A stretch of 64,000 nucleotides of DNA from Pholiota molesta (taxonomy: Eukaryota; Basidiomycota; Agaricomycetes; Agaricales; Strophariaceae). A program made the translations under genes and the position numbers. Shown piece after piece: positions 31,879-51,223 of this stretch. A model generated the notes under the pieces. The model saw only the letters and a list, made by a program, of their open reading frames with translations, had not been told where the DNA came from and made no database searches. Numbering within the stretch: the stretch's first letter is position 1; each line of letters starts with the position of its first letter. The DNA lies in assembly GCA_014925825.1 (NCBI GenBank), contig JACGCK010000129.1, positions 1-64,000 on the forward strand. The letters are read 5' to 3'.

Positions 31879-31889
31879 CACGAAAAACG
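31879..31889 (+). repeat. Plavaka left terminal inverted repeat
   Basis: CACGAAAAACG is the inverted counterpart of the right end, which has one extra A. CACG termini are related to the CACTA-type ends of this superfamily. Confidence 0.85.
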
Positions 31890-32125: not shown

Positions 32126-32445
32126 TGTCTTTTTGAGAATCAAAAAGACAACGCACTATACAAGATATATATATAGCTATCTCTGAGACATTCAGAAAGA
32201 TAAACAAGGACACAAGGTATATATTCTAATGTCTCTGAGATTTTCAAAAAGATAAACAAGGATACAAGGTATATATCCTAATGTCTCTGAGACTTTCAAA
32301 AAGATAACACCGTATACAAGATATATATGTTGATGTCTTTGAAACCTTTGAAAAGATTAGCAAAAATACAAGGCATATAAGTTGATGTCTCTGAGACTTT
32401 TAAAAAAGATAAATATGGATACAAGGTATCAATTTCAAAGTCTCT
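32126..32445. repeat. Subterminal tandem repeat, about 52 bp x 6
   Basis: Each degenerate unit starts TGTCTCTGAGA, continues with TTTCAAAAAGATAAACAAGG and ends near ATACAAGGTATATAT. Six units run in direct orientation, the first and fifth most diverged. They lie 250 bp inside the left end, a typical position for transposase-binding repeats. Confidence 0.75.
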
Positions 32446-32692
32446 GTAATAGCTTGAGAGTTGCAAATAAGCTTTCACACTTGCTCAAAAAGATTCAAAA
32501 AGTGTTGGAAGCTTGGTAGGTCCTTTCGCCAGGTGATTCTCAGAGCACTCTCAGAACCTTTGAAAGTATTCTCAATCTCTCTATGAGGCGCATAAATTTT
32601 CATATTTCAGGGGCCCAGAATGCAAATAGGTAAAAAAAACAAATAAAACGATGGTACGCGCAACATAGATAGAGAGGGAGAGGAGGCTATGT

Positions 32693-34749
32693 CTAATTAT
32701 CATCCTCTTCACCTTCACCTTCTGCCTCACTAGCATCGGCAATTTGATCAAGGGCTGAAAAGTCAACAGGTGCAAGATCTTGATCAGTCGTAGAGCTCGC
32801 AGCTTGCAAAAGAGATTGGCTAGACCTAAATGCAAGATAATTAGATAAGGTAAAACAATTATAATATAACCATACGCGATCTTCATATATAGTGTTCTGA
32901 GCCAAAATCCTGTCCATTTCTTAGTCGCCATCTCCAATTTGTTCCAATTAGCCTTATGACGGTTTGAGCTAATGGAAGGGTGATTTAGATAACATATCCT
33001 AATGTAGAGAAATAATGAAATAATGCTTACGATGATTTCATAGCTTCTTCAGAGAAAGGTAGAACAGATTTTGTACCTTCCTTCCATTCCTTCAATGAAT
33101 GTTCGATCTGAGTGGGGAGAGTGATCAGCAGATAGTCAAAAAATTAAATGTTAGAACAGTTACAGCAGCTAGAGTCACCAAAATAATAGTGACCGGGATC
33201 GTCTTTTCTTCTATGATGCGGGCAGTTGTTTCTTGATCAGCCTTTGATTTCGATGTCGAACAAAACCATTGGTCTTGGATGACCTCTATCATTAGTTCAG
33301 AACCAAACGGTTTATTGGAATCAAATGTCTGATTCTATACAATGTATTAGCCATGATCAATTGTATATTATAAACATACCTGTAAATTGATACCCCCAAA
33401 CATAAACTTGGCATCTTCAAGAAGCCAAGCAACGTCGGAACGTATCTTGTCGGTAGTTCCAGTAAGACCATAGCTCCCTTTAACCTTCATGCGAGATTTG
33501 GAAATGAGGGAGCTTAGGAGATTTGTGCGAGCATATAACGCCTACACCAATAAACGTGAGTATAAGTTACTGGTTAGAAGTAGCACGTACAAAGGTTACG
33601 AGGTTCTTTTTCTTTGCCATGTCATGGGAGTTCTTCTTGAATGCTGCAATCGTATTGGCATTCTTGGATTTCTGTGCAGCTTTCTGGATTGCATTCCATG
33701 CAAAGTCAAAACGCTTTGGGCCACTAGCGTCACTCATATCTCCAAAAACCATTTGATACCTAACTTGGGCTTTGGCAGCAATAGTGAGTGCCCGGGAACT
33801 TGGAGAAAAATGAGCCTCTGTCACCTTACTTCCACTACCAGTGGCAGCCGCATGTGCATTAGAAGCAGCCTTCGAAGATGAAGATGCTGTCGATGGAGCC
33901 AATGAGGCCGACCTTGAGGGTGTTTTTGAAGCTGAGCGGCTTTTGAGTGATGCAATGGAATGTGTATCATCATCGACAGTTATCTATCAATTCAAGTTTA
34001 GCACAATAACCATGAATACTTTCTAAACGCACCCCATTATCAGCAAAAAAAACTGCCTCTCCTACTTGCTGTTCATCTTCATCAAGATCATTCCCTCCAG
34101 CCTGGCTGCCATCCTCGCCGTCACCGTCGTCAAAGCCAGTCTCAGCGTCTTCATCTTCTTCATTTGCAGGAGGTAGAGGCTGCAGTAAACGTTTTGGTTG
34201 AGAAGAGCCACTGCCTTTAGGTTTGGACGTTGCGGGAAGGGTGCCAAGAGACTGAAATAACTCTTCCTCTTCATCATCCAGGGCTAAGCGTTGTTTCTTA
34301 TGATGACGACTTGGAGGTATATCGTCCTCCTCTCCCTCTTCCTCCACATCCTCTTCTTCTATCTCAGGTTCCTCTGTTGGAAATATATAAGTATATGTTC
34401 AAAAATAGGCGATATACATACCTTCTAAATCCTTCTGCAAATGTTTTAGCATTTGCATTTTCTCAGCAAGAGACATGTCGTCAGTTTCCAGCGCTGGAGT
34501 ACTCCCCTTTCTTGGGGCTTTGCTTATGGTTGATGCCTTTCTTTTCTTTACAGAGACCTCTTCCTCTTCCTCTTGATCGTGATGATTCGCAGGGGGTCGG
34601 CCCTTAGGATGTGCCTTTGAAGGGGGGCGTTTGTTGGCAGGGAGGCTGGCGGTGGATGAATTGGCTGCGAGATTGGACCGGTTGGACCCTCCTCGGGTCT
34701 GGATACCTTGGGTACCCTTTTTCGCTGAGTTGCGGGTAGTAAGAGTCAT
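32693..34749 (-). CDS. DUF6532-like protein, 565 aa, eight exons
   Basis: Exons 34749-34422, 34373-34033, 33983-33591, 33541-33380, 33334-33164, 33107-33031, 32968-32876 and 32825-32693 join without a slip through seven introns of 45-62 nt (1,698 nt). The start MTLTTRNSAKKG was chosen because the basic N-terminus begins there. Residues about 40-220 are Lys-rich then acidic and probably disordered. The C-terminal half carries the pattern I associate with DUF6532 of mushrooms: a SYGLTG block, FMFGGINL, PFGSELMIEVIQDQWF, then TIPVTIILVTLAA-IEHSLKEW. Biochemical function is unknown. It is convergent with nothing; its 3' end faces the left terminus. The intact frame suggests it is maintained with the transposon. 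Confidence 0.8.
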
Positions 34750-34903
34750 AGTAAATAATAGGGAGAAAAGCTTTGCAAAATGAGACGTATGGGATGTAGG
34801 ACGTTGGAGGTTAGGAATGAAATTCGAACCATGGGAAACTATATTTGATGAACACATTGAAGCGGACATTAAAATATTCTATGTACTCCCCGCTAGCTAG
34901 GCA

Positions 34904-37900
34904 TTAAATTTGGCCCCCTCCACGAGTCGAAGTAGTCATATAGATAGACTTATCCCATCCATTACGATCTTTAACCCAGGCTTGTCCATCTTTATCAGAA
35001 TGAAAGACAATAGATGCACGTCTACCTTTGAAATGCAGATTAAAATGACTCAATTCACTTGAGCGAAAGAGCACTACATCTCCATGGCGAAGCTCCAACC
35101 GTATGCCTGGCTCCATAAAGCATAGGTCACCACCCTCACAGGCTTCAGAAAGTACCATAACCATGCAAAACTTGAGGTCATTCCAGTCCCGATGAAGATT
35201 TGTCGACACGTTGAAGTTTATGACAAATCCGCTAAAGGGGTAGGCTGGAGAAAAGCCCCCAGCAGGCAGAACGTCTGCAAACTGTGCAATGGCATCGTAC
35301 TCATCAGGAATCAATTGCTTGACCTAAGAAAAAAATTAACAATAGAGAAAGAGTATTTGAAGAAAAGAAAACATACAGCAGTAGCGAGCCATTCAAAGAT
35401 ATCTTCAAAGCTCTCTTCCAGCAATTTATACTGTGTTGAGTGCGTTTGAAGCTCCTTAGACGTTCTAGGAACACATTGGGCAGTCTTGACCTGTTTGCTA
35501 CTGCCTGCTCTTTGATGGGCGGCAGGCTCTATGTCAATAGGAACTTTATCGCCCTATCCAAGAAATTAAAATATGTAAATACAGGAAATAAGACAGAAAA
35601 CATACCCTTTTTGAGTAGCGATTATACCATGAGAAATGCACACTCTCAAAGGTATGCTGATGTTTTGCACTCCATGTATCCGTTTCAACTAGGTTTTCAG
35701 GATATGCAGCTGTGAGATACCGCATTGCCTTTTCCTTGAGCTCGGTAGGCATATCAGGAATGACAATAATCATAGGCTGATCGTTAACGTCATTGATACA
35801 TAGACGTCTGCTCAACAGAGATGAGAAAACAAAATACGCTTTAATAATGGAGACGTACTTGTTGATAATATTCGCAGGAATATGAATGTATTTTTTGCTT
35901 TCGCGATAACCAGAGGCGAGGAGCTGTTTAAGCTATGAAGACAGATCAGACTATGCCAAGGACTAAAAAAGATGATATACCTTGGCTTGGAGATCCTCAA
36001 TCGATATCGCAGCTTCAGCTGCCTGTGCGGGCTTACGCTGTTTTTGTGTTGCAAAGTAGCGATTGCGTGCCTTCCCAGTATGATAATCGACTTTGATGTT
36101 TTTGTCGTCTTTTGGATCGAAAGCAGTGTTGATACAGATTACCTCACTGGGGGCTGGGAGGACAGCCGGAGGAAACATTTCAAAGTCACTGTCATAGTCA
36201 GTCAAAGGTGATAAAGGGGATTCCGTTGACTGGTCAACTCTAAAAGGAGCAATAGACCCATCAGCTGTGGGCATTAATGAAAGAGTAGCATGGTTGATGA
36301 GATAAAATGGTTGCGGATGCAGATAATTGGGTAATGAGGTATAACAGGATGACCAAACATCTGAGCGAGGTCTCAAAATTGTACTAGCTCACATTTTAGT
36401 AGGGATTGATGTAGAAGAAAGAAAGAGACTCACTCAAAAATCATCTGGTTGAAAAACATGTCTGAACGCGCAAAATCCCCAAATTCTACTGTGGGTAGAG
36501 TATTCTGACTTTTCAGGAGAGGTTGGTTGAACATTGTAGAGAATGTGATTCGATATTTATTCCTCATTCTGGAAATAGCAGGAATAATATCTTTGATGAC
36601 CAACTGGCCATCAACGCTATCTAGAATCATATAAGCATTGAAAATAAAGGCTAAAGAGATATGAACATACTGGGATCTGGGCATCTAATAACATAGTTTA
36701 CTCTCATTAGAACATCAGCAGTCAATTCACTCCGTCGAATACGTCCTCGAAGTTCCGCTGCAGCAACAGCGGCTAACAAGAACATAGTCCCTACAGATAT
36801 GACATTAGAGCTCAGAAATAGATTTGATGTATAGCCTACACACCTGCATTCGCCAAGATGGTATATTTATTTCCATCGCGAAAGTACCGGTAAAGCGTGG
36901 ATACATGTTTGCTGCATTTGATTGATTCCAGAACAGCGTTTGTCGTAGACTGTTTTGAAAGAGAAACACTAGAGAAAATTGTTAGATAGGTTCCCCTCAA
37001 AAAAGAAAAAGACGTACCTGATTACTTTATTGCGAAACTGGATACAATTCACCATATAGATGAAATCCATAGTCACGGCGCTTGCATCAGCTCGCATACA
37101 GCGATCTGCAAGGCTGTCCAAGGAATCAACGGCCATTAACAATGGCGCAGGGTTAGTTGCCTTGCCTAAAAGTGCATCGAATATGTCAGCGATGCTTTGT
37201 CGCTTGTTAGATTCACATTGTTGGCAAGCAATAGAAAGTTGGAACAGGAAGGTGGAGGCAGCCGCACTGAGGGTCTGTTTTTCGTGTACTGGCTCCGAAT
37301 TGACCACAGCAGGGGCATAGGTGCATGTATCTTCTTGCGCTTCTTCTTCTTCTTCTTCACCCATAAATGCGTTATTGGACTGGCAGGATGTACTTTGAGC
37401 TGCCAAGCGTGCCAGTATTCCTCCACGCCAACAAACCCATCCGCCTCCGCCTCCTCCTCCTCCTCCTCCTCCACCACCACCACCACCACCACCACCACCT
37501 CCTCCTCCTCCTCCTCCTCCTCCTCCTCCTCCTCCTCCTCCTCCTTGTCCTCGTCCTCCAAATTGATTGGCATTGCCCATACCTAGTCCAGGCAAGCCAT
37601 TATTGAGCCAGCGACGGAGCTCCTCATCATCGTCATCGTCTTCATCACCTGCATCTTCATCATCATTGCCCCCCTCAGCATCCTGCTGGCCATCCACCTC
37701 ATTGGGATGTTCCTGGTCATCCTTATCAGGCTGTTGGTTCTGCATGTGATAGTTTGCGAGATGGTAAAATGCGGAAGCGTAGTGGTGTATGAAGATATCG
37801 TCCGTAGTATTGGGGGATTTAGCAAGGTCGGCAGAGCTATCCAGAGGCTCGCTGTCTTTAGTCATGTCCCCGACGCGAATAGCAACCATCCGACGAATAT

Positions 37901-38691
37901 CATGGGCAGCCACAGAGTCATGTTTAGCATAGGCTAGCACAAAGTGGCGAAATATTTGGGCAGTCGCATAGGCCAGATCATGGTCTTCCTCGGTGTAGAA
38001 TGCTACAATGTTCTCTTTGACGTAATTGGAATCCATAGGGACCTCAGAGCAGGCCTGCTGTAGAGAAGGGCATGGGCTAGAGGTCAGGAATAGGCGCGAA
38101 GGTGGATTTCCAAGATCAGAGGGTTGGGCAGGGGCTACAGATTGACCACGGCAATTCTTAGAATACGGGCTATAGCGGGCATGATGCGCCACTAATCTTT
38201 GAGCACCTGATGTTCGACGGACTGGCGTTTGCGGTACAGATAAACTTTGCGACTCGTATTGAGGCCAATTGAGATGAGCATGCCTGGAATTGGGTGTAGC
38301 AAGAGGGGAACTGTGAGGGCTAGAAGCAGCAAAGGGAGAAGAGGGTGGTAGATTCGGGGAAAAAGTCTAGATGGCAGGACATAAGTTTGTACCCATTGAT
38401 CATGCGACGGAATACGAACTTTCAGGAACATGAACTCCGAATTATCTGGTGCTATGGGCGACGTAACGGCGGCATGGCTAGAGGGCTGCAATGTGAAATC
38501 AAGGTTCAGTTGGACAACGGTTGGGTAAAGCTTTAAAGACTTACTGGAGATAGAATACCAAAACAACGATTGACAGGTAGAGATGCCTCCAATTTCGAGG
38601 CTATAGTGGCAAGATCATTTGGAAGACTGCTGTTTTGCTTGAGATAAGCCAAAAGGGCTGTAGTCTCAGCAGGATCTAGCAAAGCTGTCAT
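34904..38691 (-). CDS. TET/JBP-family 2OG-Fe(II) dioxygenase with long N-terminal extension, about 1,107 aa
   Basis: Ten exons: 38691-38545, 38485-37018, 36968-36844, 36790-36671, 36620-36434, 36383-35981, 35932-35859, 35807-35606, 35553-35377, 35323-34904. The last exon holds the dioxygenase core: FVINFNVSTNLHRDWND (iron-binding H-x-D), GGDLCFMEPGIRLELRHGD, ELSHFNLHFKGRRAS (distal His and 2-oxoglutarate-binding Arg) and VKDRNGWDKS. Fungal TET/JBP enzymes oxidise 5-methylcytosine or related bases in DNA. Activity here is inferred from the motifs. The large second exon encodes an acidic linker and a poly-glycine tract, then a conserved-looking block continuing through exons 3-6 that I do not recognise. 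That exon is one base short of frame: an apparent T deletion in a T-run near 38,365. All other junctions are in phase. Confidence 0.85.
37441..37560 (-). repeat. Trinucleotide microsatellite encoding poly-glycine
   Basis: About 40 CTC/CAC-type triplets (plus-strand view) encode an almost pure glycine run of roughly 35 residues inside the TET/JBP protein. It is in frame as read, but the length is probably polymorphic and hard to sequence. Confidence 0.85.
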
Positions 38692-38998
38692 GCGGCCCGG
38701 AGAATACTTCGCGCAGAGTGGTTCAGAGTCTGGAGGGTGTAAATTACCCCGGGGCGCTGGCAAGCTGAAAGTCTAGTCCCACGGTTTTGAAAGGGGTACT
38801 TGCTGACTAACACATCTCGTCTCTTCCAAGTTTTCACATATAGTTCCTTAAAGCACTATACTCCAGAAGTTAGAAAATAAATATGAGCAATAACATGTCT
38901 ATTGACATCTGAATCACCCCTAGTTTACATGAGTAGCACTCTATCCTGAATAAGAGTTCAGTAAAGCATGAGATCAAAGACTTTAACGGCAAAACTTA

Positions 38999-39980
38999 CT
39001 ACTGGATATTGTAGTCAAGATCCATACCAAGGTTTGCGTAGATGTAGTCAACGAGAGCTTCAACATCTTGTTTCGAGGTTTGGTTGAAAGGAATGACGGT
39101 GAGAGACGAACCACAACTACTGAAAGACTGGAAGATGCCCTGATAGTATTCGACCGTCTTGCGGCTGTAGCTAGATTTGACGACAGACCACAACTTCAAA
39201 ACATCGTCTTGGACCTTCTGGATGTTGATGGCTCCGGACACGGTATCTCCGCTAGCCATCTCTTCAACATAAGCTTCGAGCTTGCGAACGTTTTCACGAA
39301 CGACTTGCGTATGTTTGATTTCACCCTTTTCGGTGACTGGTTACTTCGGTGTGAGGAGCGGTGGGGAAAGTGACTAAAGGAAAATATATCAGTGGAAGTA
39401 CAAAAACGTCAACTGTGCAAATGCGTACCATCTTTGTAGAGTGGGGGTGTGCCAACAACCTCGCGTGTGTTATCGATGAGTTGCTGACCAAATTCCTTCG
39501 CCAACCTCTATGTCTTGCCCTTTGAAGGATCCGTCCGATCAATGTTGTACTGCATGTACTGGAGCATGTCAGGATCAGCACAATTTAGAAGGGCGATACA
39601 ACGAGCAGTGATTTCGCAATCGACAGTGGTAAGACGGCCAAAGATGATGTCGTAGAACATGATGAGCGCATCCTGGCGAACCCAATTCCACGATGAATCG
39701 AAGTGACGAGCCTTCAAGATATCGAAGCGGGGCTGGATTCCATCGAGGTACGCATCGCCGTGCTCGCGAGTGATGCTGTGTGCTGATCGGCTTGGAACTT
39801 GAGGAGCTCCTCGCTGTTGATAACAGCGCCACCTCCAGCGGCGCCACCGCTCCAGGGCGGAAAGAGAGATCTTCAATGCTAGCCACAGGGCCGGAAGGTG
39901 CAGCAACAGTGATAGGAGCAGCCGCGGCAGCAGCAGAAGTTGCAGCGGCAGTGGGCGCGGCTGAAGAGTGTTGGCAGTAA
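38999..39980 (-). pseudogene. FAS2 (fragment): Captured fragment of fatty acid synthase alpha subunit (FAS2)
   Basis: On the minus strand, in order, it shows SGPVASIEDL (ACP-proximal linker), VINSEELLKFQADQH in another frame, HGDAYLDGIQPRFD with [48 protein letters not shown] after a retained intron, and finally [13 protein letters not shown] and [18 protein letters not shown]. These are landmarks of the fungal type I synthase alpha chain up to the ketoreductase region. ACP and intervening segments are deleted, one TAG interrupts the frame and several slips are present, so it cannot make a working enzyme. The intron shows capture of genomic DNA, not of a spliced transcript. The 5' side is fused to a topoisomerase III fragment. 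Confidence 0.85.
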
Positions 39981-39984
39981 ATGC

Positions 39985-41216
39985 CGGCAGCTTTGTCGTT
40001 CGCGCCAGCACCAAAGCTGCGAGATCGTTTGCTACCCGAGGAATCACCTTGCCCTCCAGGACATACTGTAAGATACATTATTAACTTGAAATGCATCGCC
40101 AACACGTATAAAGAAAGCATACCATTTGCAAAATGGCCCTCTTCGCCACACTAGTTCGATTCGTCAATCGACGCTGCTACCATGAATAAAAGGATGAGGA
40201 ATACCTTGTAACATGAGCCAGAAGCACCGCCGCTATTGAATGATGGAGTAGCGCCCGCACTTCTACCCACTGGTCCACTAGAGGTTCGCGGAGGTTCATC
40301 GTCCCATTCAAAAAATGTGCATGGCGATTGGTCGGCAAGCTTTCTGCACTTCCAGAACTTTCGTCCTTTATTTGGGCCTTCTTTCTGCGTTGTGAGCATG
40401 ATTCCATCTTCTTTACAATTACATTGTCGTGCCTCTCCACCATCATTGTTTGTCTAACAGAAGCTCAGTTCGCATCGGCGCGGAAGAAAATATCAGACTT
40501 ACTGTAGAATATGGGCGTTTCGCAGGAACGCTCGCCACTCCTTCATCAACCCATTGGAAGAAATCGCATGTACGCATGTCGCATGTCCAGAACTTCCTGC
40601 CTTTTGAAGCGGTGTCTGCGGTAACCGTCCTCTGACCAGCAGGCACGTCACAGCGACACAAGTTTATACCATCGTCTGTCATTGAGTTGCTTCGATTGTA
40701 ATCAGCTCGAGGTGGTGGTGGTCGTGGTCGTCTTGCAGATGAAGTCGACGCGGCGGCGGGCGGAGGACCGGCTTGCCAGGTTGGAGACATATATAAAGGC
40801 GCTGTCTGGCGTGAGCTGGAGCCTACGGCAGTCGACGATGTTGTCTATATACTGGTTGTGGTATAAGAGGTATAATCGCGGTATAATCATCCGAGATGGG
40901 CCGGATTGTAGAGATGAGGTTGCTGTTGTTGCAGTGCGCCCAGTATTAGGCGTAGCGAAGTCGTCGTCTAGAGCAAACAAAAATATTAGACAGTTTTGGA
41001 GACGTCAGTAGGCAAGCATACCATCATCAGAGTCGATGGTTACGAATTCAGCAGAACTAGGTGCACGGCCTCGTCCACGACTGCGCGTTGTTGCTGCAGC
41101 GCCGTGTGTGCCCCTTGCAGCACGTCCGCGTGCAGCTCCACGGCCTCTTGCACTCGAATTTCCGCCTCCTCCGCCTTCGTCGTCGCCTCCATTTCCACCG
41201 CCTCCACCGCCTCTAC
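39985..41216 (-). pseudogene. TOP3 (fragment): Captured C-terminus of DNA topoisomerase III with two GRF fingers and a CCHC knuckle
   Basis: The RG/G-rich stretch ARGRGAARGRAARG (about 41,100) leads through a GTATGC intron into a first GRF zinc finger (INLCRCDVPAGQRTV...TCDFFQWVDE), an intron, a second GRF finger (QCNCKEDGIMLTTQKEGPNKG...CTFFEWDDE) and, across another intron, a CCHC knuckle (CYK-CGEEGHFANVC). This domain order is typical of fungal type IA topoisomerase III tails. The catalytic domains are absent. The open frame continues from SKRSRSFGAGANDK into FAS2-derived sequence near 39,980, creating a hybrid. It may be exonic in a chimeric transcript; no independent start codon is evident. 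Confidence 0.8.
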
Positions 41217-41559
41217 CAGCGCCAGGATGTCGAGGTCAGGTGCCATGCGCCGCCAATCCTGGATCTCGACCTTGTCGCGGACCGCCATTCGTTGCCGTTG
41301 AAGGGAGTTCGTGGAGCTTGAAGGCAATCGTGGACAGTACGTGGGATATTCGGTGTTCGTCACTGTTAGGAGGTGTTAGCGGACATGGCCGGCTGTTCGT
41401 CAACGTTGAAATGGCCGTTCCTCGATGTCGACGGTGGTGTGTCGAAGATCCCGGTCGCCATCAACCGGTGGGAGGTGCTGTGCACGCCTGGCCCGCTCCT
41501 TGGTGTCTTGCCAACTGATCCAGGGTGCGAGAGGCTCTGGTTGAAGGCGCGGATGCTCA

Positions 41560-41776
41560 GGTTTGAACCTGCGGACATGAGACAGACATTATTATTGTCA
41601 GGATTTTGTCTTTGAGAGTGACACAGATACACCGCGCACCATTCAGCCTTGACCCATTGCCCATCCTCTGTCTGCTCATAGATGCCCTCTCTCATGGCTT
41701 CAGCGCCCACTGCTTGTACCTTCCCATTGCAATCGTAGTAGATGATAATGTGAATCTTTCCTATCGTCGCCGCCAT
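41560..41776 (-). pseudogene. Captured N-terminal fragment of an Hsp70-like ATPase
   Basis: The segment encodes IIIYYDCNGKVQAVGAEAM and REGIYEQTEDGQWVKAEW, followed by a GTGCGC...CGCAG intron and FKPEHP. This resembles the start of the atypical Hsp70-like proteins abundant in mushrooms (IPSxxYYDxxGxVxAVGAEA...VEWFKLHLRP). The phosphate-1 loop exon that should precede it is not visible. Confidence 0.7.
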
Positions 41777-43099
41777 AAGGTGCTCTTGGAGGTGTAGGAC
41801 TGGAATATCGCGGTCTTGTGCAGGATAACGTGGCTCTCGATTTGTTGGATAGTACTGATCACGGCCATCAAGATACGTCGTAGGTTTAGACGGCCTGTCT
41901 TGATAATAGCACTCATGCTCTTCAGTGCTAACGAGGGAAGATTATTGGAGAGTGATTTCATTGAAGAACCGGTTGTAGCATACTGCATTGTAGCGGACGA
42001 CGGTCCAGCAGACCTCGTCCGTGCGGCCAATCACGGGCACTCAATCCTTCCTCGGCGGCGTCGTCCCCCTCTGGAATGGTTTCTGTCATTGGTCGAATAC
42101 CGGCCCCGGAGCCGTTAGAGCGCATGCTCGTCGTGCTGCCCTGTCGATGCACTTGATTGACATAAGGCTTCGATGTCATGAGTTCGTCCGCAGGGTTTAC
42201 GCTGGGCTTCCAACCTTTGGGCTGAGTAGAAGGTGATCGAGATGTGTGTCCTCGTTTGGACATGGTCATTGACCTTACAGAACCCCCTGAAGATCTGCCC
42301 AACGAACCCTTCCATGGCTGATCAGCAGCCTTATCAGACGAGTATCTCGTAGTGAGCTTGTTCCTCTACCAGCTTCAAAGCCATTTTCCATAACCTTGCT
42401 AGTCGCTTTCATCTCCTTCAACCTCTTGTCAACAGCGCTTCATCGCCGCTGCTGCCGGCACTGCGCCCTCCTCAAGCAGCCATTCGTGTAACTCCTTTAG
42501 CTGGCTCAGCTGCCCCGCTGCGACCGCCATCCGGCCACCCGCCTGCATGATCTTCTGCTCCAGCGAACAAGGCGGACCAGCTGTCAAACGTTAAGGTTGT
42601 CGGGCGGCTGGAGAGTCTGAATTCAGAGATCATGCAGATTGCGGCGAGCATGATGGAGGAGCTGGCGATTGAGGACAAGCAGATCACAGGCGAAGGAGCA
42701 GAAGTTGAACGAAGCATGGGAAGGGTATACGCCTGTGTAGGATACAGTGGCCGAGGATGGCGGAGCTGTTGAAAAATTCAGAGCACAATGAAGGTCCAAT
42801 ATTGGTGCAGCTGGCAGCGCAAGCGAGTATGGCGTATGGCGGCGTTTCGAGTCGCCAGAGGACGAGCATATGCTGAGCGAGAGATATATGCGCGAGTACC
42901 AGAGCCAGGTGAGTAAGGTTTAAAATCAACAGAAACCTCCGACTAACCACATTATATCAGAAGAACATCGCGGAAGTTGACGGCCGTATTGTCGACGTTT
43001 ACACGGCGGCCGTTCATCGACGTTTTGAAGGCCGTTTCTTGATGTTGCCATTGGTTGCTGATGTCTTGCCTGGCCGTTCTTCGACATTGAAGGCGTCCT
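41777..43099. other. Unassigned filler between captured fragments
   Basis: Short frames on both strands show no recognisable domain. Around 41,390-41,425 and 42,985-43,110 the minus strand shows related Asn-Val-Glu-Glu-Arg-Pro-like units (plus-strand GGCCGTTC-TCGAC-TTGAA), a small interspersed repeat shared by the two Hsp70-like pieces. Confidence 0.4.
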
Positions 43100-43585
43100 T
43101 CAACATTGGCTGCCTTTGGGAGACGTTGACAGCGTGTACTTTGTTGAACATATACTCGCTTGCGGCAAAGCCTCCTACAAGAACGACGTGCTATATCACA
43201 TAGCTCAGACAAGCTGTGGAATGTGCGAAGATATAAGTGACACTTACGGAAATAGGTTTGTGTGTAGTCCATTTCTGATCGAGCACGGCCTTGACGATAC
43301 AGTCGATGGAAGGCTCGAAGAATAATGCAACATCCATCCTATGGATCATAGAGAATGATTAGATGAGAATAGTTGACAGCAAAAGGTTGGAGGGAACAGA
43401 CCCTAGGAGTTCGAGCTGTGCGAAGCGGATGTTATGGCTGGGGTAATTGTTTCTGGTCGTGCCAAACTTGACGTATTGTGGTTCTTCTGCATCTCTGAAT
43501 TGTAATTTCGTGGTCTTGTCGAAGCAGCGCATGATAAGTCCGATATCGTCAGCAAAGAGAGATCCAGCCAGGTAGTCCAACATAA
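43100..43585 (-). pseudogene. Captured C-terminal half of an Hsp70-like ATPase domain
   Basis: On the minus strand it shows GLIMRCFDKTTKLQFRDAEE, YVKFGTTRNN, NIRFAQLELLG, then FFEPSIDCIVKAVLDQKW and LVGGFAASEYMFNKV. These follow the order of the second half of Hsp70-like ATPase domains in mushrooms; LVGGFAAS is the adenosine-binding motif. It lies 5' of the N-terminal fragment on the same strand, so the two pieces are in reversed order or come from different paralogues. The frame changes several times. Confidence 0.75.
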
Positions 43586-43589
43586 CTTC

Positions 43590-44209
43590 GACACAAATGC
43601 GGCCTCAATATTCATCAACGTTTCAAAAATAGACTGCTCAGCCCACATTGCATTCCTAGCAGCTCGTTTCCTCTTGATAATGTATTGGTTCCCATTATCG
43701 CGGCGGATGCATGTAGTGGCATTTGCTGTAGTCCCGGATCTTGATAACCTATCGAACGCGTTGAATTCGAATTCGAAGTCGGAAAGAGCAGCGATTGGCT
43801 GTAAATCATCGATCAGGGAAGGATCAATGTAGAGGAGCGCAAGACCTACCGTAATGGAACAGCGCGACTCTCCATGATCTTCGAGGATGGTCGGTAATCC
43901 GTGAGGAGCTCGCCTCTTCGAAGACAAAATGACAATCTCCTGGTCAATATTGCTGGAAGTGGGACTCTTTCTAATTATCGTAATCTTCGAGCTGCTTTCC
44001 AGCGAAGATGAGACACTGTTGATTGGGAGTGAGACCAAATGGTCAGCCAAGTTGCCAACTGGGAAACTGATAACAATGAGATGAGTAAGTAACTTACCTT
44101 TGCTTGTCTTGGATCTTGGCCTTGACTATCGGAGGACTTGTAGATGAGAGAATTATTGATGTTGCCGATGAGATCCTTGGCTGAGTGACAAAGACTCAGA
44201 GTCAGACAT
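43590..44209 (-). pseudogene. Captured kinase-like N-terminal fragment with its own start codon
   Basis: From an ATG at 44209 (MSDSESLSLS) the frame runs, after one apparent single-base slip and two introns (GTAAGT...TATCAG, GTAGGT...TTACAG), through a Ser-rich leader to DFEFEFNAFDRLSRSGTTA and QYIIKRKRAARNAMWAEQSI, FETLMNIEAAFVSKLCWT. This resembles the N-lobe of a basidiomycete protein kinase: Lys-containing strand, then a helix with conserved Glu. It breaks off into the Hsp70-like fragment near 43,590. The kinase assignment is tentative. Confidence 0.5.
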
Positions 44210-44359
44210 GGTAATGCTGGGTCACGCTTGGGTCACGCGTAAACGCGATGCATTTCATGACTGTTTACTATTTAGGTATTGAATCACGTGCACGTCTTGC
44301 AACGTCGACGGCATAAACTTGAATTTGCAATAGCAGCATACCAGAACTAAGATCAAAGA
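44210..44359. promoter_or_regulatory. Divergent promoter interval between the two transposon arms
   Basis: Only 150 bp separate the minus-strand ATG at 44209 from the plus-strand ATG at 44360. All transposon genes to the left read leftward and all to the right read rightward. GGTCACGC occurs twice (near 44,220 and 44,230). A shared bidirectional promoter is inferred from the layout. Confidence 0.4.
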
Positions 44360-45158
44360 ATGGCAAATTCTTCCCCTAGTGTCATTCCAACCTCTCATCA
44401 AAGCGAAATAGAAGTAGGTCATCAATTCTACCTATTGTGTCTATTTATATTGACTTCTTGTATTATCTGGTGTAGTTTGTTGCAGCAACCCCACCGCCAT
44501 ATCAAACCCCAGAAAGGTACCAGGAGGGTCAATGGAAAGGCCTAACATTTACGGAAGCTCGCCTTCTGTACTTAAGGACCAGAAATTCACTGGGAACACC
44601 ACATAGTGGTATTACCGAATTTCCTCAACCTCCGGTATGATTTCTGTATCGTCTTCTATAACCTATCATTATTAACGTCAAGTTTTAGGGTGCCTCATTA
44701 AATGAGAGCCCAATTATGGCTCAAAAACAACGGGAATCTGCAAGAACTTCGGATTATGAGGTAGGACATCATGTTTTCCTTTTGAGTCATACTAAAGTTT
44801 GATGTATTCATAATAGTATACCCCCTGCTCATCTGCCTATATTTGTGAAGGCTCTGACCTTCTTCCTCCAATCAATATTAGGCCACTGCGTATCAAGCCT
44901 GTCGATCTCATTCCTAACCTTGGTGCCTCAAACAACGTGTTAGCTACAAAGATCCTCTCTCAACAATATGCCATATTGCAACGTAGGATACTGCTCACAC
45001 GTCTGGCGCAGAAAAAATGTGTTTCCAGAGCCATTCTAAAGGGAAGAAGCTCTAAAAAACTCATCAGAGCACAGGTGAAAAATGAAGTGGAACGTAGACA
45101 AATTATTCGAGATCGAAAGGTCTTGAAGAAGAAGATAAAGTTTATTCAAGGAAATTAA
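44360..45158 (+). CDS. Plavaka accessory protein 1, basic C-terminus, 208 aa
   Basis: Exons 44360-44413, 44476-44634, 44689-44760 and 44817-45158 join in frame through three introns of 54-62 nt. The family is not recognised. The N-terminal half is Ser/Pro/Thr-rich with ERYQEGQWKGLTFTEARLLY. The C-terminal 70 residues are strongly basic with leucines at heptad-like spacing (QQYAILQRRILLTRLAQKK, RRQIIRDRKVLKKKI), suggesting a helical nucleic-acid-binding or dimerisation region. The intact four-exon frame in a young element argues that it is functional, perhaps as a transposase cofactor. Confidence 0.7.
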
Positions 45159-45660
45159 TGCACTATAGTGAGTTCTCTAGCTTATTCTTATAAAATCTTG
45201 TATTTATCACTATAACAGAAAAATCCCATTAGATTTATAGCTACAATTTGGATAGGGGAATACGTGTTCTGGCGAGTTGGCTGAGCTTTGTTTTATTAAT
45301 GTGTCTAATTTTAGCCGTGTGAATTCTTTGGCAAGGTGAATGAATCTGAGTGTAATTTCCTAGCTTTTACACCATCCCAGCACCAGGGTCGCAATGTTTG
45401 TATTTCGCACAAGCTATTTGCTGTTTCCAACCTGTCTCTCTGAGTCTTGTTACTTGTATTCCAAACACTTTTGGCCCACTCACCTCTCCTTGCGCCAAGC
45501 CCCAGTGAAAACGCTCCTTTTAGACGCCACTTTGTCTCTGTATTCAGCATTTGCCAGGCTTTCTCTCACCGTAGCATTCATCGTTGACATTCACCCACTT
45601 CATTTCGGTAAATGTCACTCAATGTCAAACGTGTTGATGCTTATCTTCGTTACTTCTTAG
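45159..45660. other. Intergenic interval inside the Plavaka right arm
   Basis: It holds AT-rich sequence with one open frame (45394-45660) that ends in TAG directly before the next ATG and shows no domain. It is probably the promoter of accessory gene 2. Confidence 0.4.
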
Positions 45661-46129
45661 ATGTCTACACACCTCAAATGCCTTGAGTGTGGATATGAAT
45701 ATCTCGCAAGTAGAATGGATACCTTGGAGTATGAAAGTTATTGGGCCGCAGAGCAGAGAAATGGTGGCTTTGTCCGCCTCGGGAAGAAGACCATGCTCAT
45801 CATAACAAACTTTTGTAAGCCTACTATGAGTTACTTTAATACTTATTCATTCCTGACATGTGAACTCTTCCCTAGTTCGGAAGATTGCTTCCAAAATTCG
45901 AAAGCTGCGGCCATGCCAGCACATTCATGTAATTGAATCCGTTGATATGGTCTCTGTCAATTCAGAGGAAACTCCCTCGTTCGTTGACATTTCCGAGAAA
46001 GAAGGGGTTCTGGTGGAGGGAAAAATGTCGTTCCACACAGATGATGATGAGGAAATGGACATTGACATTGCTGATGCAATGGGCGTATATTTCACATACT
46101 ACCGTGACTGTGGCTCTGACGAAAGCTAA
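45661..46129 (+). CDS. Plavaka accessory protein 2, acidic, 135 aa
   Basis: Two exons (45661-45814 and 45876-46129) join through a 61-nt intron with GTAAGC donor and CCCTAG acceptor; the frame ends in TAA. The family is not recognised. It has a CLECG pair at residues 7-11 that could be half a zinc site, a basic middle (FRKIASKIRKLRPCQH), and an acidic C-terminal third (DDDEEMDIDIAD). It ends 88 bp before the transposase ATG and is probably a separate transcript. Confidence 0.6.
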
Positions 46130-46216
46130 ACAGCATTTACGCTAGATCCCCTTCTTTGTTCATTGCTATCGCGCTTTATCCTGCTCTCACTCTGTCCATC
46201 TACATTTTGCAATAAA

Positions 46217-49200
46217 ATGCCTAACCATGCCTGCCCCAACTGCGACAGATATTTTGGAACCATCGGAGGGCTTAACAAGCACTTATCATCAGCAAAATCC
46301 TGCCATTGGTTTACTGAAGAACGTTTGCAACAATTGGCTGACACACTCCCTGATCAATCTGACACCGACGACAACACAGAAGAGGAGAATAATAGCAACA
46401 CAGATGGAGCTAATTACGATCCTTTGGGAGACCTCACCCTCGACCTCGATCTTAACATTGAGGACGACATAGATGTTCTTGATGTCCTTGGAGATGCTCC
46501 TAACGAATTTCATTTCGAACCATCGATTGATGATCCCACAACAAACGACGGTAATGCAGAAGCTGGCCCTGGACCTCAAACAGCTGCCTACCGTCTTCGA
46601 CTAGCAGCAATGCGCCACATTTTGGATGATGACGATGATACACGCATCATTGACTCTGATTCAGATTCTGGTCATGTCCTCCGCTATACATCCCCTCCCC
46701 TTCCTATTTCTCTTGATGAAGATGGCGATTCAGAAATGCTTCCAGAGGGCGCAAATTCCCGTTTTTATCCCTTCACATCCGAGCTCGACTGGAAGGTGGC
46801 TCAATGGGCTGTTAAGGATAGTCCAGGTCATAATGCCTTTAATTGTTTGCTAGAGGTTCCTGATGTAAGTTAATAAATCTATTAAAGGGTCTGGTTTATT
46901 GATAATTGTCTATTAGGTCGTAGAAAAACTGGGCCTTTCCTACCATAATATTCGTGCTCTCCATCAAAAGGTCGATTCTTTACCAGTAGTGCTTGGAAGT
47001 CCAGTCTCAAGACTGAAAAAAGACCGGGACTGGACTGGACCTGAACCAGAAAAGACCAGAAATTTGATGGACTGGAAAAGACCGAGACCGTGGTCCGGTC
47101 CATGGTCCAACAGGATTTGAAAAATAGATGGACCGATCAAAAACCGGTCTGGACCAGTCTCAACCAGTCTTTAGCCACGAAAATTTGTAGGCCGATAAAA
47201 CTTTAAAAGTCCTTTCGAACGACACCCAAACCGTATTTTTAGCGTAAGAATTGACAAAGTTATTAATAGTTTCGTTTAAGTAATTACTTTGGGCGTCTAA
47301 AAACGCTTTTAGCCGCAGTGCAAACGTTAATGGGTCGTACCTTTCGCAAACTTGAACACATATAAGAGACATGCAGATCTACATGATGCAATTTAGACCT
47401 TAATATTTAAAAAACATTTGGTTGAGCTATAGTAATATCGATGTTTTCTACTCTTTTGACTACTTCAAAGACGCTTTTGCCTGTGCTTCGTTCAATATAG
47501 ACATCGCCCTTTCGCAAATTGGGCTACAGTTAGATATTAGAATTACCTTTTTAACAAGCATACAATCATAATATATGGTAAGGAAGTGACTGAGATATCA
47601 CAAAATGCGCTCAACCACTGCATTTGCTGGTATTTTAGTTGTTTCTCACTCAATTCTCCACCAATTTTTATATTCTTTGAAGTACTACATACTACATACA
47701 GTATTCTACCTAATTATTACCAGTCTAGACCAGTCTCTGACCGGTTGAGACCGGTTTGGACCGTAACTGGTCTTAACCGGTCTTTGGACCGCTCAAGACT
47801 GCAGTGGACTGGTCTTATGCAGTCCGGTCTGGTTTTTTTCGGTTTTTAAAAATAGATGGACCGGTCTCAGTCTCGGTCCAAGCCCCTGAAGGGTAAAAGA
47901 CCGGACCAGACCGGACTTTCAAGCACTATTTACCAGACAGGGCTGGAATATGGAAGACCAAAAAGCTACGCTTTCCTGATCGGCCAGATGAGATTTTTAC
48001 TCTACGTTACCGAGACCCTGTTGAAGCAATCAAATCACTTTGGAAGGATCCTGAACTATCGCCACAGATGGAATTTGGTCCCACCAAAGTTTATACGGAT
48101 TCAACAAGAAAAGAACGAATATACAGTGAAATGTCATCAGGACTATTGTGGAATGTTCTTGCAGTAAGATACGTTCTCATATATGTTTAAAGTCAATATT
48201 GATGTCGCTCTTCATAGCAAAAACTGCCTGAAAATGGAACCTTAGCACCTGTAATAGTTGGCAGCGATAAAACTCAACTTACGCAGTTCATAGGCAGCAA
48301 ATCGGCATATCCAGTTTATCTCACCATCGGCAATATCCCAAAAGCTACACGGAGAAAACCATCCAAACGTGCTTGTATTCTTATCGCCTATCTATCGGTT
48401 GACAAGTTGTCCCGTATTGGCCTGACTGATAATCAATATCGATCCCGAGTACACCGTCTCTTCCACCAATCCATGCATATCGTTCTTAAGCCCCTTATTC
48501 AAGCTGGAGAAGATGGGGTGGAGATGACAAGTTCTGATGGCGCTGTCCGTCTAGTGTTTCCCATCCTTACATGCTACGTCGCGGATTACCCAGAGCAGTG
48601 TCTCGTAACATGTACGAAATACGGAACTTGCGTAAAATGTCAAGCCCCAGCAACCGATCTTGGAAACTCCACTCCTTCAGAACGTCGCACCCAAGCATGG
48701 ACATTGTCAGTTATCGAGGAGGCCAGAAAAGCGTCAGAAGGAAACTACAATACGTTCTACGCTCACTGTATGTCAAACGATGTTTCTGGGGGTGTTTTTT
48801 CTCCTTTTTGGGAAGGGTTCCCATTAGTCGACATCCACCGCACAATTACTCCCGACGTTCTTCACCAGCTATATCAGGGTGTATTCAAACACTTGGTTGG
48901 TTGGTGTGAGAAACTTCTTCCAAAGGATGAACTAGATCGACGAATTTGCAGCCTTCCACCAGGATATGGGCTTCGACATTTCAAAAAAGGTTTCTCTGGA
49001 CTATCACAAATTACAGGATCTGAACGAAAACATATGGCAAAGATTCTTTTAGGCTGTCTGATTGGGAGTATACCAACTCATGCTGCCGAAGCGATCACCT
49101 CTCTCTTAGACTTCATTTACATTGCCCAATATCCCGCTCATAATTCTACTACTCTGGGCTATCTCTCTGACGCTCTTAAACGCTTCCACGAAAATCGTCA

Positions 49201-50291
49201 CTTCTTTGAAGAAGCACAAATCTGCAAGCATTTCAACATCCCTAAATTTCATTCGCTTCTCCACTACCCCGAATCCATCAAAGAAATTGGGACAACAGAT
49301 AACTACAATACAGAACTGTTTGAACGTCTTCATATCGACTTTGCTAAGCATGGATGGCGAGCATCGAACAAACGGGATGAATTCCCACAGATGATTCGAT
49401 GGCTTTCTCGTCAGGAGAAAGTCGATAGCTTCCGCATACATCTTCAACATACTGGCCACCATACTCCGATGAATATCCAAACCTCCTCTGCTAGGCAACT
49501 CAAATCCATTGCGAAGTCTCCAAACTTTCCAGGTCGAGCTATTTCTCTAATCGAAGAGAAACATAATGCCCCTCACTTTTCTCATTATCTCAAAGTCTAT
49601 ATCAATAATCTACCATCTCAGCAATCACGTCTGTCTTTACGCGACCTAGAACGTACTATTCTGCCTTTCAAAAAGGTAGATGTCTATAATACCTTTCGGT
49701 TCCATTTAGCTAGCATCAACGACGAAGAGCCAGAAATTGATGCCGTTAACGCCATTCCTATATCATCCAAGTACCCCCATGGAAGATTTGATACTGTTGT
49801 CGCTATTGTTAAGCAAGACGCTGAATCAACAGGGCTTATAGGTAATTATTTATTTACTTCACTTTGAATAGAAAGTTAATTTTATATTATTAGGAACGCG
49901 GATCGGTCGTGTAAAAGTAATTTTCACTTTACCCAAAATTCTGGACACCATAACAGGACCTACAAATCCTCCTACCTCCTGGCCTAAAGATCCTTTAGCC
50001 TATATTGAATGGTACTCTCCTCTTCCATCCCGCGCTCTACCAGGAAATGGCATGATGTACCATATCAAAAAGGTCGAGCCAACATCTAGTTCAAGTGATA
50101 TACCCAAGCGTGCCCCAGGTGCTATTATCCCAATAAGCAATATACGACAAAGCTGTATGTTGTTCCCTGCCTTTCCTAAAGATTCAGGACGTACACCTTC
50201 AGATTGGACCACAGATAACGTGCTCGATAAATGTTCTTCATTTTTTGTCAATAATTGGTTAAGTAAATATTCATATCAGTCTATTTGGTAA
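46217..50291 (+). CDS. Plavaka transposase, 988 aa when spliced, interrupted by a MITE in exon 2
   Basis: Exons are 46217-46864, 46917-46986 plus 47937-48163, 48218-49841 and 49894-50291. The start MPNHACPNCDRYF was chosen over an upstream in-frame ATG because the family begins with this C2H2-like finger (CPNCDRYFGTIGGLNKHL). Landmarks in order: YRDPVEAIKSLWKDPELSP, VIVGSDKTQLTQFIGSKSAY, FPILTCYVADYPEQCLVTCT, DIHRTITPDVLHQLYQGVFK, NIPKFHSLLHYPESI, ELFERLHIDFAKHGWRASNK, and a C-terminal block with SNIRQSCMLFPAF. The protein would cut and insert the element by an RNase H-fold mechanism. There are no stop codons or slips apart from the MITE at 46987-47928, whose removal with one 8-bp duplication restores the frame. 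Confidence 0.9.
46987..47928. mobile_element. hAT-like MITE, 942 bp, inserted in the transposase gene
   Basis: It is flanked by the 8-bp duplication TTTACCAG (46979-46986 and 47929-47936). The terminal inverted repeats are TAGTGCTTGGAAGTCC on the left and the complement of TAGTGCTTGAAAGTCC on the right. Subterminal regions are packed with GACCGG/GACCAG motifs in both orientations; the centre is AT-rich and non-coding. An 8-bp duplication with TAGTG ends fits hAT; a KDZ-type origin also gives 8 bp and cannot be excluded. Confidence 0.85.
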
Positions 50292-50467
50292 TTTAAACGA
50301 AGTATTTGTACAAATAAAATATTAATAATGGTACCTACTTCTGCTATTAGTTGTGGTTCTAGATATGAGGGATAATGCTAGCATATCGGTGACCCAAGTT
50401 CGAAATAAGCATGGACAGTTGACAGAGGCTACTATAATATATATTATACAATTATTGAAATGACAAA

Positions 50468-50558
50468 TGCCCTATAGTGTAGTTGGCAATGTGCTGGCTA
50501 AATCCTGGGAAATGGCACGTGAGGTTGCAAGTTCAAACCTCGGTCAGTGCATTATTTT
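50468..50558 (+). ncRNA. tRNA-derived Pol III unit (SINE-like or tRNA pseudogene)
   Basis: An A box (TAGTGTAGTTG, 50475-50485) matches TRGYNNARNNG. A B box (GTTCAAACC, 50531-50539) matches GWTCRANNC. They are 46 nt apart, and a T5 run at about 50554 could terminate transcription. The acceptor and T stems contain mismatches, so it is not a sound tRNA; a tRNA-derived remnant is more likely. Confidence 0.5.
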
Positions 50559-50851
50559 TCCAAGTAAAGTCAAGAGGCATGCATAACGTTCTTGCAAGCT
50601 ATAAAGCTTTGCATATACTTTCGCAGCTTTCTGAGCCTCCAGTGCGCTTTGGGAAATATTCGTAAGTCAAAAGCAAGTGCGTAAGGGATCACTGATTGCT
50701 GAGCGACCTTGTACAGACTTGGGAACTAAAGTATATAGAAAGCCAAACTAAAGGTGCTCTGAGAGCATCTTGGACTGACCTGAAGTGCTCTGGGATGCTC
50801 TGGTATCTCTGGGATGCTCTTGACTTACCTGGCTCAGCTTTAGCGCAAAGG

Positions 50852-50863
50852 CGTTTTTTCGTG
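50852..50863 (-). repeat. Plavaka right terminal inverted repeat
   Basis: CGTTTTTTCGTG reads CACGAAAAAACG inward, matching the left end except for one extra A. AT follows immediately. Confidence 0.85.
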
Positions 50864-50865
50864 AT

Positions 50866-51223
50866 GCAGCACCAAACTCCACCCGCTGCGGCCCCACGCG
50901 CAGCGCCAGCTCAGGCTCAGGCCCAGCCAGCACGTACTCCAGCCCAGCCAGCCCGTGCTTCAGCTCCAACACCCGCGGTCTCAGCAGCGCCACGACCTCC
51001 TGCGGACCCGAATGCCATGGATGTCGATGCTGCCCGTGCTCGCAACAACGGCGGCAGGTCGTACTCGTCGCGGTGCTATGGGTGCGGGGAGGAGGGTCAT
51101 CGTATCAACAACTGCCCTAACCTCCTTGCGAGCATACGTGCTGCGGTGACGGAGGCTGTTAGTGGTGCCTCTGCTCGGGCGCCTGCTCCTGCGGCCAGTG
51201 CCCCCGGTCAGGGTTTTTCGTAG
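50866..51223 (+). CDS. Gag, 3' part with CCHC zinc knuckle
   Basis: It continues gag in frame after removal of the Plavaka element (393 codons in total with 31058-31878, including the stop). It is Ala/Pro/Gln-rich, then carries the nucleocapsid knuckle CYGCGEEGHRINNC near 51,080. It ends in TAG at 51221-51223, just after a slippery heptamer. Confidence 0.9.
51211..51217 (+). promoter_or_regulatory. Probable -1 ribosomal frameshift site GGGTTTT
   Basis: In the gag frame the bases read G GGT TTT, an exact X XXY YYZ heptamer, ending 3 nt before the gag TAG. A -1 slip leads directly into the pol frame, which has no stop from this point to 55452. Confidence 0.7.

Follow-up and report, generated by a model that had tools for sequence, protein, structure and literature searches.

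Mosaic of host-gene fragments inside a TET+ PlavakaB transposon of Pholiota molesta

The window (positions 1 to 64,000 of a Pholiota molesta contig, 64,000 nucleotides) contains a DNA transposon in which pieces of several host genes lie side by side, and this raises the question of how they came to be there. In the cited sections of the literature that our search found, multi-fragment capture by cut-and-paste transposons is a plant phenomenon, takes a simpler form in animals and involves one or two genes in fungi. Here, a ten-segment mosaic lies in a mushroom transposon that also bears an epigenetic eraser. One genome holds the donors, the junctions, the second copy and a related element, which makes the capture route and order, and the donor and sense bias, directly testable.

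The element and its insertion site

The transposon is nested inside a Gypsy element (Table 1). Its ends are CATCACGAAAAACG and CGTTTTTTCGTGATG, which are CATCA..TGATG termini typical of Plavaka, and the target site duplications, CA in the window and CG at a second copy (C1), fall in the 2–3 bp range of Plavaka. With CA counted once, the Gypsy gag frame is open through the CCHC motif to the stop, and with both CA copies the frame is broken. A search for an empty site with the joined Gypsy flanks matched the window alone; the 2-bp duplication therefore rests on the two insertions and the gag frame. A predicted 549-aa ORF with the Plavaka transposase domain lies inside the element. The TET/JBP gene also lies within the ends, and its region is present in both the window and C1 copies. 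TET+ PlavakaB (Kojima 2025, PMC12730594) likewise combines a Plavaka transposase, a TET/JBP gene, these termini, a 2–3 bp duplication and Agaricales hosts, but the cited passages of that paper describe no host-gene fragments, and words beginning with ‘fragment’ or ‘cargo’ are absent from its main text.

Table 1. Positions of the transposon, its genes and its cargo segments in the window.
Feature	Position	Strand	Donor locus or remark
Target site duplication, left copy	31874..31875	.	CA (2 bp)
TET+ PlavakaB transposon	31876..50866	.	18,991 bp; aligned to C1:8428-26041 up to both ends
TET/JBP dioxygenase exon (PF12851)	34904..35323	-	35.2 bits vs cutoff 34.9
FAS2 (fatty acid synthase alpha) fragment a	39004..39175	-	C604:749534-749705, 4.1% substitutions
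FAS2 fragment b, with intron	39173..39779	-	C145:44394-44993, 4.8% substitutions
FAS2 fragment c	39779..39870	-	C145:45111-45213, 1.1% substitutions, 11 gap columns
FAS2 fragment d	39869..39961	-	C145:45679-45777, 10.6% substitutions
Filler, 21 bp	39962..39982	.	
TOP3 (topoisomerase III) C-terminal fragment, two GRF fingers and introns	39983..41225	-	C46:647857-646639, 1.7% substitutions over 39983-41206
Segment without assigned donor, 324 bp	41226-41549		
HSPA12-type Hsp70-like N-terminal fragment	41550..41758	-	C344:3363-3565 and paralogues
Unnamed conserved protein gene (C257/C258), two fragments	41761..42351	-	C257:75122-74864, 74731-74400
Filler, 21 bp	42352..42372	.	
eIF3c fragment	42373..42436	-	C555:710732-710797
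SMC3 fragment	42434..42565	-	C168:19472-19605
Unnamed coiled-coil gene fragment, opposite sense	42566..42967	+	C586:70150-69721; GT..AG intron read in sequence
Segment without assigned donor, 162 bp	42968-43129		
HSPA12-type Hsp70-like C-terminal fragment	43130..43575	-	C110:26709-26256
Protein kinase N-terminal fragment	43576..43960	-	C11:24995-24603 / C601
Filler, 22 bp	43961..43982	.	
Ubiquitin fragment	43983..44131	-	C223 polyubiquitin, 73%; interrupted by intron-like insert (read in sequence)
MITE-like insertion, 942 bp	46987..47928	.	8-bp TSD TTTACCAG; missing from C1 copy
Plavaka transposase main ORF (PF18759, DUF6830)	48218..49867	+	E 8.1e-86
Target site duplication, right copy	50867..50868	.	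CA

Composition of the cargo

Host loci at other places in this genome account for 89% of positions 39004–44131. The donors are FAS2, TOP3, two Hsp70-like segments, a protein kinase, SMC3, eIF3c, ubiquitin, an unnamed conserved protein and a coiled-coil gene. Donor loci were located for 10 segments, the parents of the Hsp70-like, ubiquitin and coiled-coil (C586) segments at family level only; as in Pack-TIR elements, non-TE gene fragments with identifiable parents lie inside the terminal inverted repeats. A first-pass annotation made from the sequence alone had named FAS alpha, TOP3, two Hsp70-like segments and a kinase, all on one strand over about 5 kb. All five gene types are present, with best donor identities of 86–98%. 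The borders are corrected to 39004 and about 44131, and SMC3, eIF3c, ubiquitin, the unnamed gene and the coiled-coil piece are additions. The common strand holds for nine of the ten segments (minus) and fails for the coiled-coil piece, whose sense is plus.

Domain searches identified FAS alpha by PF18314 in window ORFs (two matches, one just under the curated cut-off) and by a PDB match (E 2e-21), and the FAS2 donor locus carries Fas_alpha_ACP and FAS_I_H. The GRF fingers of TOP3 were found by PF06839 in two window ORFs, whereas Pfam gave no recognition of the CCHC knuckle (ORF 39575–40150); the TOP3 donor has Topoisom_bac (PF01131) and its PDB match is TOP3-alpha. The kinase donor contains PF00069. 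Searched singly, the exon-sized Hsp70-like ORFs matched no Hsp70 entry in Pfam or PDB. A 353-aa probe, in which ORF pieces of two Hsp70-like paralogues were joined, matched proteins from Agaricales, among them entries with the name ‘Heat shock 70 kDa protein 12A/12B’. Searches gave no protein identity for the coiled-coil donor and no source for the three fillers (21, 21 and 22 bp).

The proposal that genomic DNA was captured with its introns is borne out. Over 110 bp, the TOP3 intron and the sequence next to it show no difference between donor and cargo; parental loci exist elsewhere in the genome, the breakpoints are sharp, and the same collage occurs in a second copy whose locus is unrelated. 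Introns would be exactly missing after capture of a retrocopy, but the TOP3 intron was kept, and of seven donor gaps inspected none has the form GT..AG. Donor gaps that are multiples of three (6 of 7) were rejected as a signal, because the pattern was lost once the shared junction bases were added.

Copies, divergence and junctions

The C1 copy has unrelated flanks. Since its collage is shared with the window, the cargo has moved, that is, it was mobilised to a new locus as in transduplication. The two backbones differ at 40 of 6,997 sites on the left and 15 of 6,033 on the right; apart from this, the copies are set apart by the cargo deletions, by the MITE and by 60 bp at 37542. Each copy has large private deletions, and the TOP3 stretch is 1.13 kb longer in C1. 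A third locus is represented by two haplotigs, C113 and C99, which end at window position 36688 and so stop short of the cargo. No cargo-free stage was seen among the copies.

The first-pass annotation had suggested looking for different cargo in other copies. C1 differs in its deletion; a related Plavaka (the C587 element) has separate pieces of SMC3 and of the unnamed conserved gene. A further site in the genome has pieces of FAS2 and SMC3. In the sequence compared, to which the C587 cargo contributed 3 kb and C143 230 bases, SMC3 recurs in three collages, FAS2 firmly in two and the unnamed conserved gene in two. The SMC3 pieces of C143 and the window differ at 34 of 133 sites; both depart from the host at 6 sites and are alike at 5. 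Their common descent is unsupported, as the shared differences read largely as donor polymorphism or CpG changes. A FAS2 match in C587/C23 (46 bp, 87%, E 2.8e-6) lies in an alanine-rich stretch and is no longer counted.

A comparison of six donor genes, made without the Hsp70-like, C586 and ubiquitin rows, shows unequal substitution rates (chi-square 78, P 2e-15). With CpG changes removed they still differ among seven rows (59.6, P 5e-11; FAS2 fragments c and d also left out). This unequal divergence from the donors favours stepwise capture. It is no clean clock, as the four FAS2 pieces alone span 1.1–10.6% (P 0.02). The TOP3 value against the nearer donor haplotype, 1.7%, is below the 2.0% between the haplotypes. 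Changes from donor CpG to cargo TpG number 97, against 27 in the reverse direction. The FAS2 cargo has a premature stop. Indels of a length not divisible by three occur in 10 of 14 aligned rows, some of them perhaps within introns; the stop and the frame-breaking indels argue against a maintained chimeric protein. In FAS2 fragment a, the amino acid differs in 6 of the 7 codons that changed, which looks neutral; SMC3 (9 of 17) and C257b (12 of 24) look less so. Judged by this excess CpG loss and the lack of any sign of upkeep as protein, the cargo itself is most likely passive.

Junctions were tested where both sides were assigned (n = 9: four gaps inside one donor gene, three joins between donors and two copy-specific deletions). 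The three junctions with 21–22 bp fillers and the borders with an unassigned side were excluded. Each of the nine shares at least 1 bp, with a sum of 14 (P 0.013 for the sum, P 0.0006 for all nine sharing at least 1 bp). Taken alone, the three between-donor junctions, with 2, 1 and 1 shared bases, do not reach significance (0.08 for all sharing at least 1). For the private deletions, the overlap of 2 in C1 was computed, whereas exact extension for the window deletion halted at a substitution and its overlap of 1 was read from the sequences and BLAST borders. The remaining four joins tested within the cargo may be plain deletions. Alignment to the donors, proposed earlier as a source of breakpoints and microhomology, thus gave sharp breakpoints and 1–3 bp of microhomology. 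The latter lends modest support to template switching in repair of breaks within the element, which is the likeliest mechanism.

Origin of the collage

We consider it probable that PlavakaB, with its own transposase and TET/JBP gene, copied pieces of about ten host genes internally, probably stepwise, and then transposed with the collage. This reading builds on the element and its ends, the donors, kept introns, sharp junctions, unequal divergence, the second copy and the private deletions, all of which are observed. A break inside the element, or a gap after excision, would open repair, and short template switches into unlinked genes would bring in each piece. The captures were probably successive, all into one internal region. 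Internal deletions would trim the captured stretches afterwards, and the element would transpose carrying the finished collage.

Plavaka has been grouped with CACTA/EnSpm relatives (PMC12730594), and therefore the earlier comparison with Pack-CACTA capture is apt. A strict Pack-TYPE label does not fit, since such elements are called non-autonomous (PMC8903248) and this one has its own transposase ORF and TET/JBP gene. The soybean CACTA element Tgm-Express1 carries five unrelated host gene fragments with exons and introns kept (PMC1947982), but it is a 5.7 kb plant element, whereas the Pholiota element is a 19 kb fungal one with its own transposase, TET/JBP and ten segments. Animal Pack-TIRs are explained by gap filling or template switching with microhomology of 1–36 bp (median 2 bp), although the cited sections mention no element that combines many unlinked genes in a mosaic (PMC8277862). 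In Dothideomycetes, DNA transposons capture and mobilise host genes, namely histone H3 by hAT and two coding regions by Tc1/Mariner (PMC6710886, PMC3538342). Those cases concern one or two genes, whereas ten genomic DNA segments are joined here, and the Pseudocercospora histone H3 copy, unlike the Pholiota cargo, has no introns. Our literature search found no multi-gene capture by Plavaka; the fungal cases in it were one- or two-gene transduplications.

The best of the alternatives, though an unlikely one, is nearby tandem insertion, in which complementary ends are lost from two copies that lie close together and the intervening host DNA becomes internal (the Pack-CACTA route proposed from Arabidopsis). 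A review puts it forward for related CACTA elements (PMC13317346), and FAS2, TOP3 and C257 each resemble a single genomic stretch with later deletions. However, the roughly ten donors lie on different contigs and would each need a round of their own, and the 64 bp eIF3c and 132 bp SMC3 pieces would be hard to produce by it.

It is doubtful that another capturing element, for example a Helitron, gathered the fragments and was later inserted into Plavaka. In plants and animals, Helitrons are known to gather gene fragments (PMC4289320), and the orientation shared by nine of the ten segments might suit such an element. Helitrons of Pleurotus ostreatus are also fungal transposons bearing extra genes, but they have other ends and another mechanism, and Castanera et al. 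report them without host gene fragments in the sections cited (PMC4289320). A strict scan found no hairpin-plus-CTRR end in 38750–39250 or 43900–44450. The cargo border sequence was found in C34 and C1 only (one search scored 40 of 234 candidates), and only short, imperfect inverted pairs flank the cargo (21 nt at 71%, 16 nt at 81%). Recurrent or Helitron-like termini of a separate nested element, the counter-evidence foreseen by the first-pass annotation, were thus not seen at the borders in these searches.

Similarly doubtful is the reading of the collage as a chimeric gene, or a source of regulatory RNA, that is under selection and expressed from a promoter near 44.2 kb. The minus-strand bias (two-sided P 0.02), which becomes 11 of 12 pieces opposing the transposase direction when the SMC3 and C257 pieces of C587 are added (P 0.006), and one intron kept whole in the cargo would fit. 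The FAS2 stop, the non-triplet indels, the neutral-looking changes in FAS2 fragment a and the large private deletions in each copy speak against it. Less probable still is a shield. On this reading, mobile elements of the genome would take up parts of the same essential genes again and again, nearly always with their sense against the transposase, and homology-spread silencing from the transposon would strike essential host genes, favouring elements with such pieces beside a TET/JBP demethylation gene. An assembly chimera is very improbable; the assembly is a draft of 625 contigs, but the shared junctions recur in two contigs, which represent different loci and have independent substitutions, the FAS2 junctions being in C34 only.

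The element and its insertion sites

Fungal TET/JBP transposons are reportedly the subject of work by Iyer et al. from 2014. In the 65.6-Mb, 625-contig assembly, positions 8428-26041 of contig C1 match the TET/JBP transposon of the window (31876-50866) up to both ends, and the flanks have no match. The termini are CATCACGAAAAACG and CGTTTTTTCGTGATG, adjoined on both sides by CA in the window and by CG in C1. The window copy lies inside a Gypsy LTR retrotransposon, parts of which occupy 30816-31875 and 50869-55749; the direct repeats of this Gypsy (30816-30997 and 55568-55749) have 99% identity. If CA is counted only once, the gag frame of the Gypsy runs for 424 codons, through a CCHC motif to its stop, whereas with both CA copies a stop is met at codon 400, in another frame. 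A third insertion, in two haplotigs, is cut by contig ends.

The large ORF of the element is a Plavaka transposase, and the TET/JBP domain lies in a minus-strand gene at the left. By the features tested the element is a Plavaka, and these agree with PlavakaB in Kojima's account (PMC12730594). In C1 the transposase ORF (G000:C1:23394-25039) matches as two ORFs; in the window, a 942-bp MITE-like element (46987-47928; ends TAGTGCTTG and CAAGCACTA; 8-bp TSD TTTACCAG) lies upstream of the main ORF. This element is absent from C1 and has at least 36 near-full-length relatives. The two transposase copies may each be impaired in a different way. A 52-bp tandem repeat (32125-32406) is found close to the left end, and a triplet-repeat tract in the left backbone (37440-37560) is 60 bp longer in C1.

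Host-gene fragments in the cargo

The cargo region was searched against its own genome, all 39 candidates were scored, and borders were then refined. The first-pass annotation had proposed fragments of FAS, TOP3, a kinase and two Hsp70-like segments inside the element, and this was borne out. Successive pieces give separate matches in the genome. Donors were identified by Pfam, PDB and protein searches, and the assigned pieces cover 4,576 of 5,128 cargo bases.

Cargo segments and their donor genes (window coordinates)
Donor	Position
FAS2, four pieces	39004-39961
TOP3	39983-41225
Hsp70-like, N part	41550-41758
Unnamed conserved gene (C257), two pieces	41761-42351
eIF3c	42373-42436
SMC3	42434-42565
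Unnamed coiled-coil gene	42566-42967
Hsp70-like, C part	43130-43575
Protein kinase	43576-43960
Ubiquitin	43983-44131

FAS2, TOP3, C257, SMC3, the kinase and the C110/C586 loci each occur twice in the assembly, as expected for two haplotypes, which differ by about 2% for FAS2 and for TOP3; eIF3c occurs once. Parents of the ubiquitin and Hsp70-like pieces can be named only as families because several paralogues exist. A 12-kb host neighbourhood (C586:69721-81731), in which several Hsp70-like matches fall, holds close relatives of three of the ten segments, namely the coiled-coil piece and both Hsp70-like parts, but the best match of the Hsp70-like N part is on contig C344. At the SMC3 locus, one haplotype (G000:C70:10518-12494) has an additional stretch of about 2 kb next to the gene. 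In the two cargo stretches without a donor, a degenerate 17-23 bp motif, GGCCGTTCNTCGACGTT, is repeated (at 41391-41429 and 43008-43088); it is partly common to the related Plavaka element on C587.

Introns are retained, as had been claimed: a TOP3 intron is identical in cargo and donor, inside a 110-bp stretch. GT..AG ends were found at none of seven donor gaps examined (four for the window element, three for C587). Judged by sequence, the captured material is genomic DNA and not RNA. The further claim that all pieces share one strand holds for nine of the ten segments, whose sense strand is minus (two-sided sign test, P 0.02), but the coiled-coil piece is sense on plus, to judge by its donor ORF and by a GT..AG intron read in the sequence. 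The SMC3 and C257 pieces of the C587 element are likewise oriented against the transposase, giving 11 of 12 when pooled (P 0.006), or 12 of 13 with a weak FAS2 match added (P 0.003), with captures taken as independent in these P values.

A premature stop (TAC to TAG) interrupts the second FAS2 piece, FASb. Indels that are not multiples of three occur in 10 of 14 aligned rows, some perhaps in introns, and changed codons alter the amino acid in 6 of 7 cases in FASa, 9 of 17 in SMC3 and 12 of 24 in the second C257 piece. Nothing seen in the reading frames suggests that a chimeric protein is maintained.

Junctions and probable stepwise capture

For seven in-cargo joins, both sides could be assigned. 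The four gaps within one donor gene share 3, 1, 2 and 1 bases, and the three joins between donors share 2, 1 and 1 (the tie method gives 4 for the last of these, with a single exact base). At two deletions by which the copies differ, 2 and 1 bases are shared. By chance, joins of donor sequence would share 0.67 on average. The nine junctions sum to 14 (P 0.013) and all share at least one base (P 0.0006); the corresponding values are 0.024 and 0.003 for the seven in-cargo joins, and P is 0.08 for the three between-donor joins alone. Three further joins carry filler (39962-39982 and 42352-42372, 21 bp each; 43961-43982, 22 bp) and were left out of this test; no source of the filler was found in the donor and copy loci compared.

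The best explanation, and probably the correct one, is that PlavakaB captured host genomic pieces stepwise, by template switching in break repair. Our confidence is limited by the fact that no more than three of the nine junctions lie between different donors. It is unlikely, on searches of the cargo borders of which one scored 40 of 234 candidates, that a Helitron-type capturing element assembled the fragments and then entered the Plavaka; Pleurotus Helitrons are reported not to take up host fragments (PMC4289320). Capture by PlavakaB resembles that of Pack-CACTA elements, as first suggested, and that of Pack-TIR elements, although the element is not Pack-TYPE in the strict sense because it has its own transposase. 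Tgm-Express1 carries five gene fragments (PMC1947982), animal Pack-TIRs have microhomology of 1-36 bp, median 2 (PMC8277862), and fungal hAT and Tc1/Mariner elements transduplicate one or two genes (PMC3538342, PMC6710886). No multi-gene capture by Plavaka was found among the 8 to 25 best-ranked open-access matches of each literature search, which for the most part leave out subscription papers.

The C1 copy lacks window 39001-40615, yet has 1.13 kb of TOP3 absent from the window. The TOP3 pieces of the two copies overlap, so that most simply one ancestor had the full piece and each copy was trimmed privately. The lowest substitution rates relative to donors are 1.1% (FASc) and 1.7% (TOP3), the highest 14-15% (SMC3, ubiquitin). 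Rates are unequal among six donor genes (P 2e-15) and, with CpG changes excluded, among seven rows (P 5e-11). This favours stepwise capture with TOP3 late, by a clock that is rough because the four FAS2 pieces also differ among themselves (P 0.02).

Between window and C1, 47 of 3,000 cargo sites differ (40876-43875), 35 of them at CpG, against 40 of 6,997 in the left backbone and 15 of 6,033 in the right; two short cargo bins, in which 4 of 383 sites differ, are omitted, and the first right bin takes in 256 cargo bases. Donor CpG became cargo TpG 97 times against 27 in reverse (P 2e-10), and CpG>TpG is the largest single substitution class (102 of 316). Observed/expected CpG reaches 1.00 in the cargo, against 0.63 for the left backbone and 0.71-0.82 for the right. 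The CpG>TpG excess would fit methylation of the cargo. That the cargo protects the element, in that silencing spread by homology would also strike essential host genes, is very improbable.

Other collages in the genome

The transposase of the C587/C23 element is 59-61% identical to that of the window, and a 3-kb part of this element is pieced together from the C257 gene, SMC3 and another gene family. SMC3 pieces are present in the window and C1 copies, C587/C23 (two) and C143 (two). Those of C587 derive from another part of the gene, and the C143 and window pieces are too different to stem from a single capture. FAS2 pieces are present in the window, C143 (479 bp, 85%) and C484 (63 bp, 90%); a 46-bp, alanine-rich match in C587/C23 was rejected as weak. 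TOP3 pieces are confined to the window and C1, besides four short matches of 75-82% identity. In a small control of two loci, the only dispersed fragments of sequence beside TOP3 were end segments (query 1-1031 and 7820-8000) that recur at several loci, and none were found for sequence beside polyubiquitin. A search with the Plavaka transposase gave no match on C143. A third collage, on that contig (G000:C143:44798-46755), combines one FAS2 piece with two SMC3 pieces, all in one sense, and also has a family in common with the C587 cargo.
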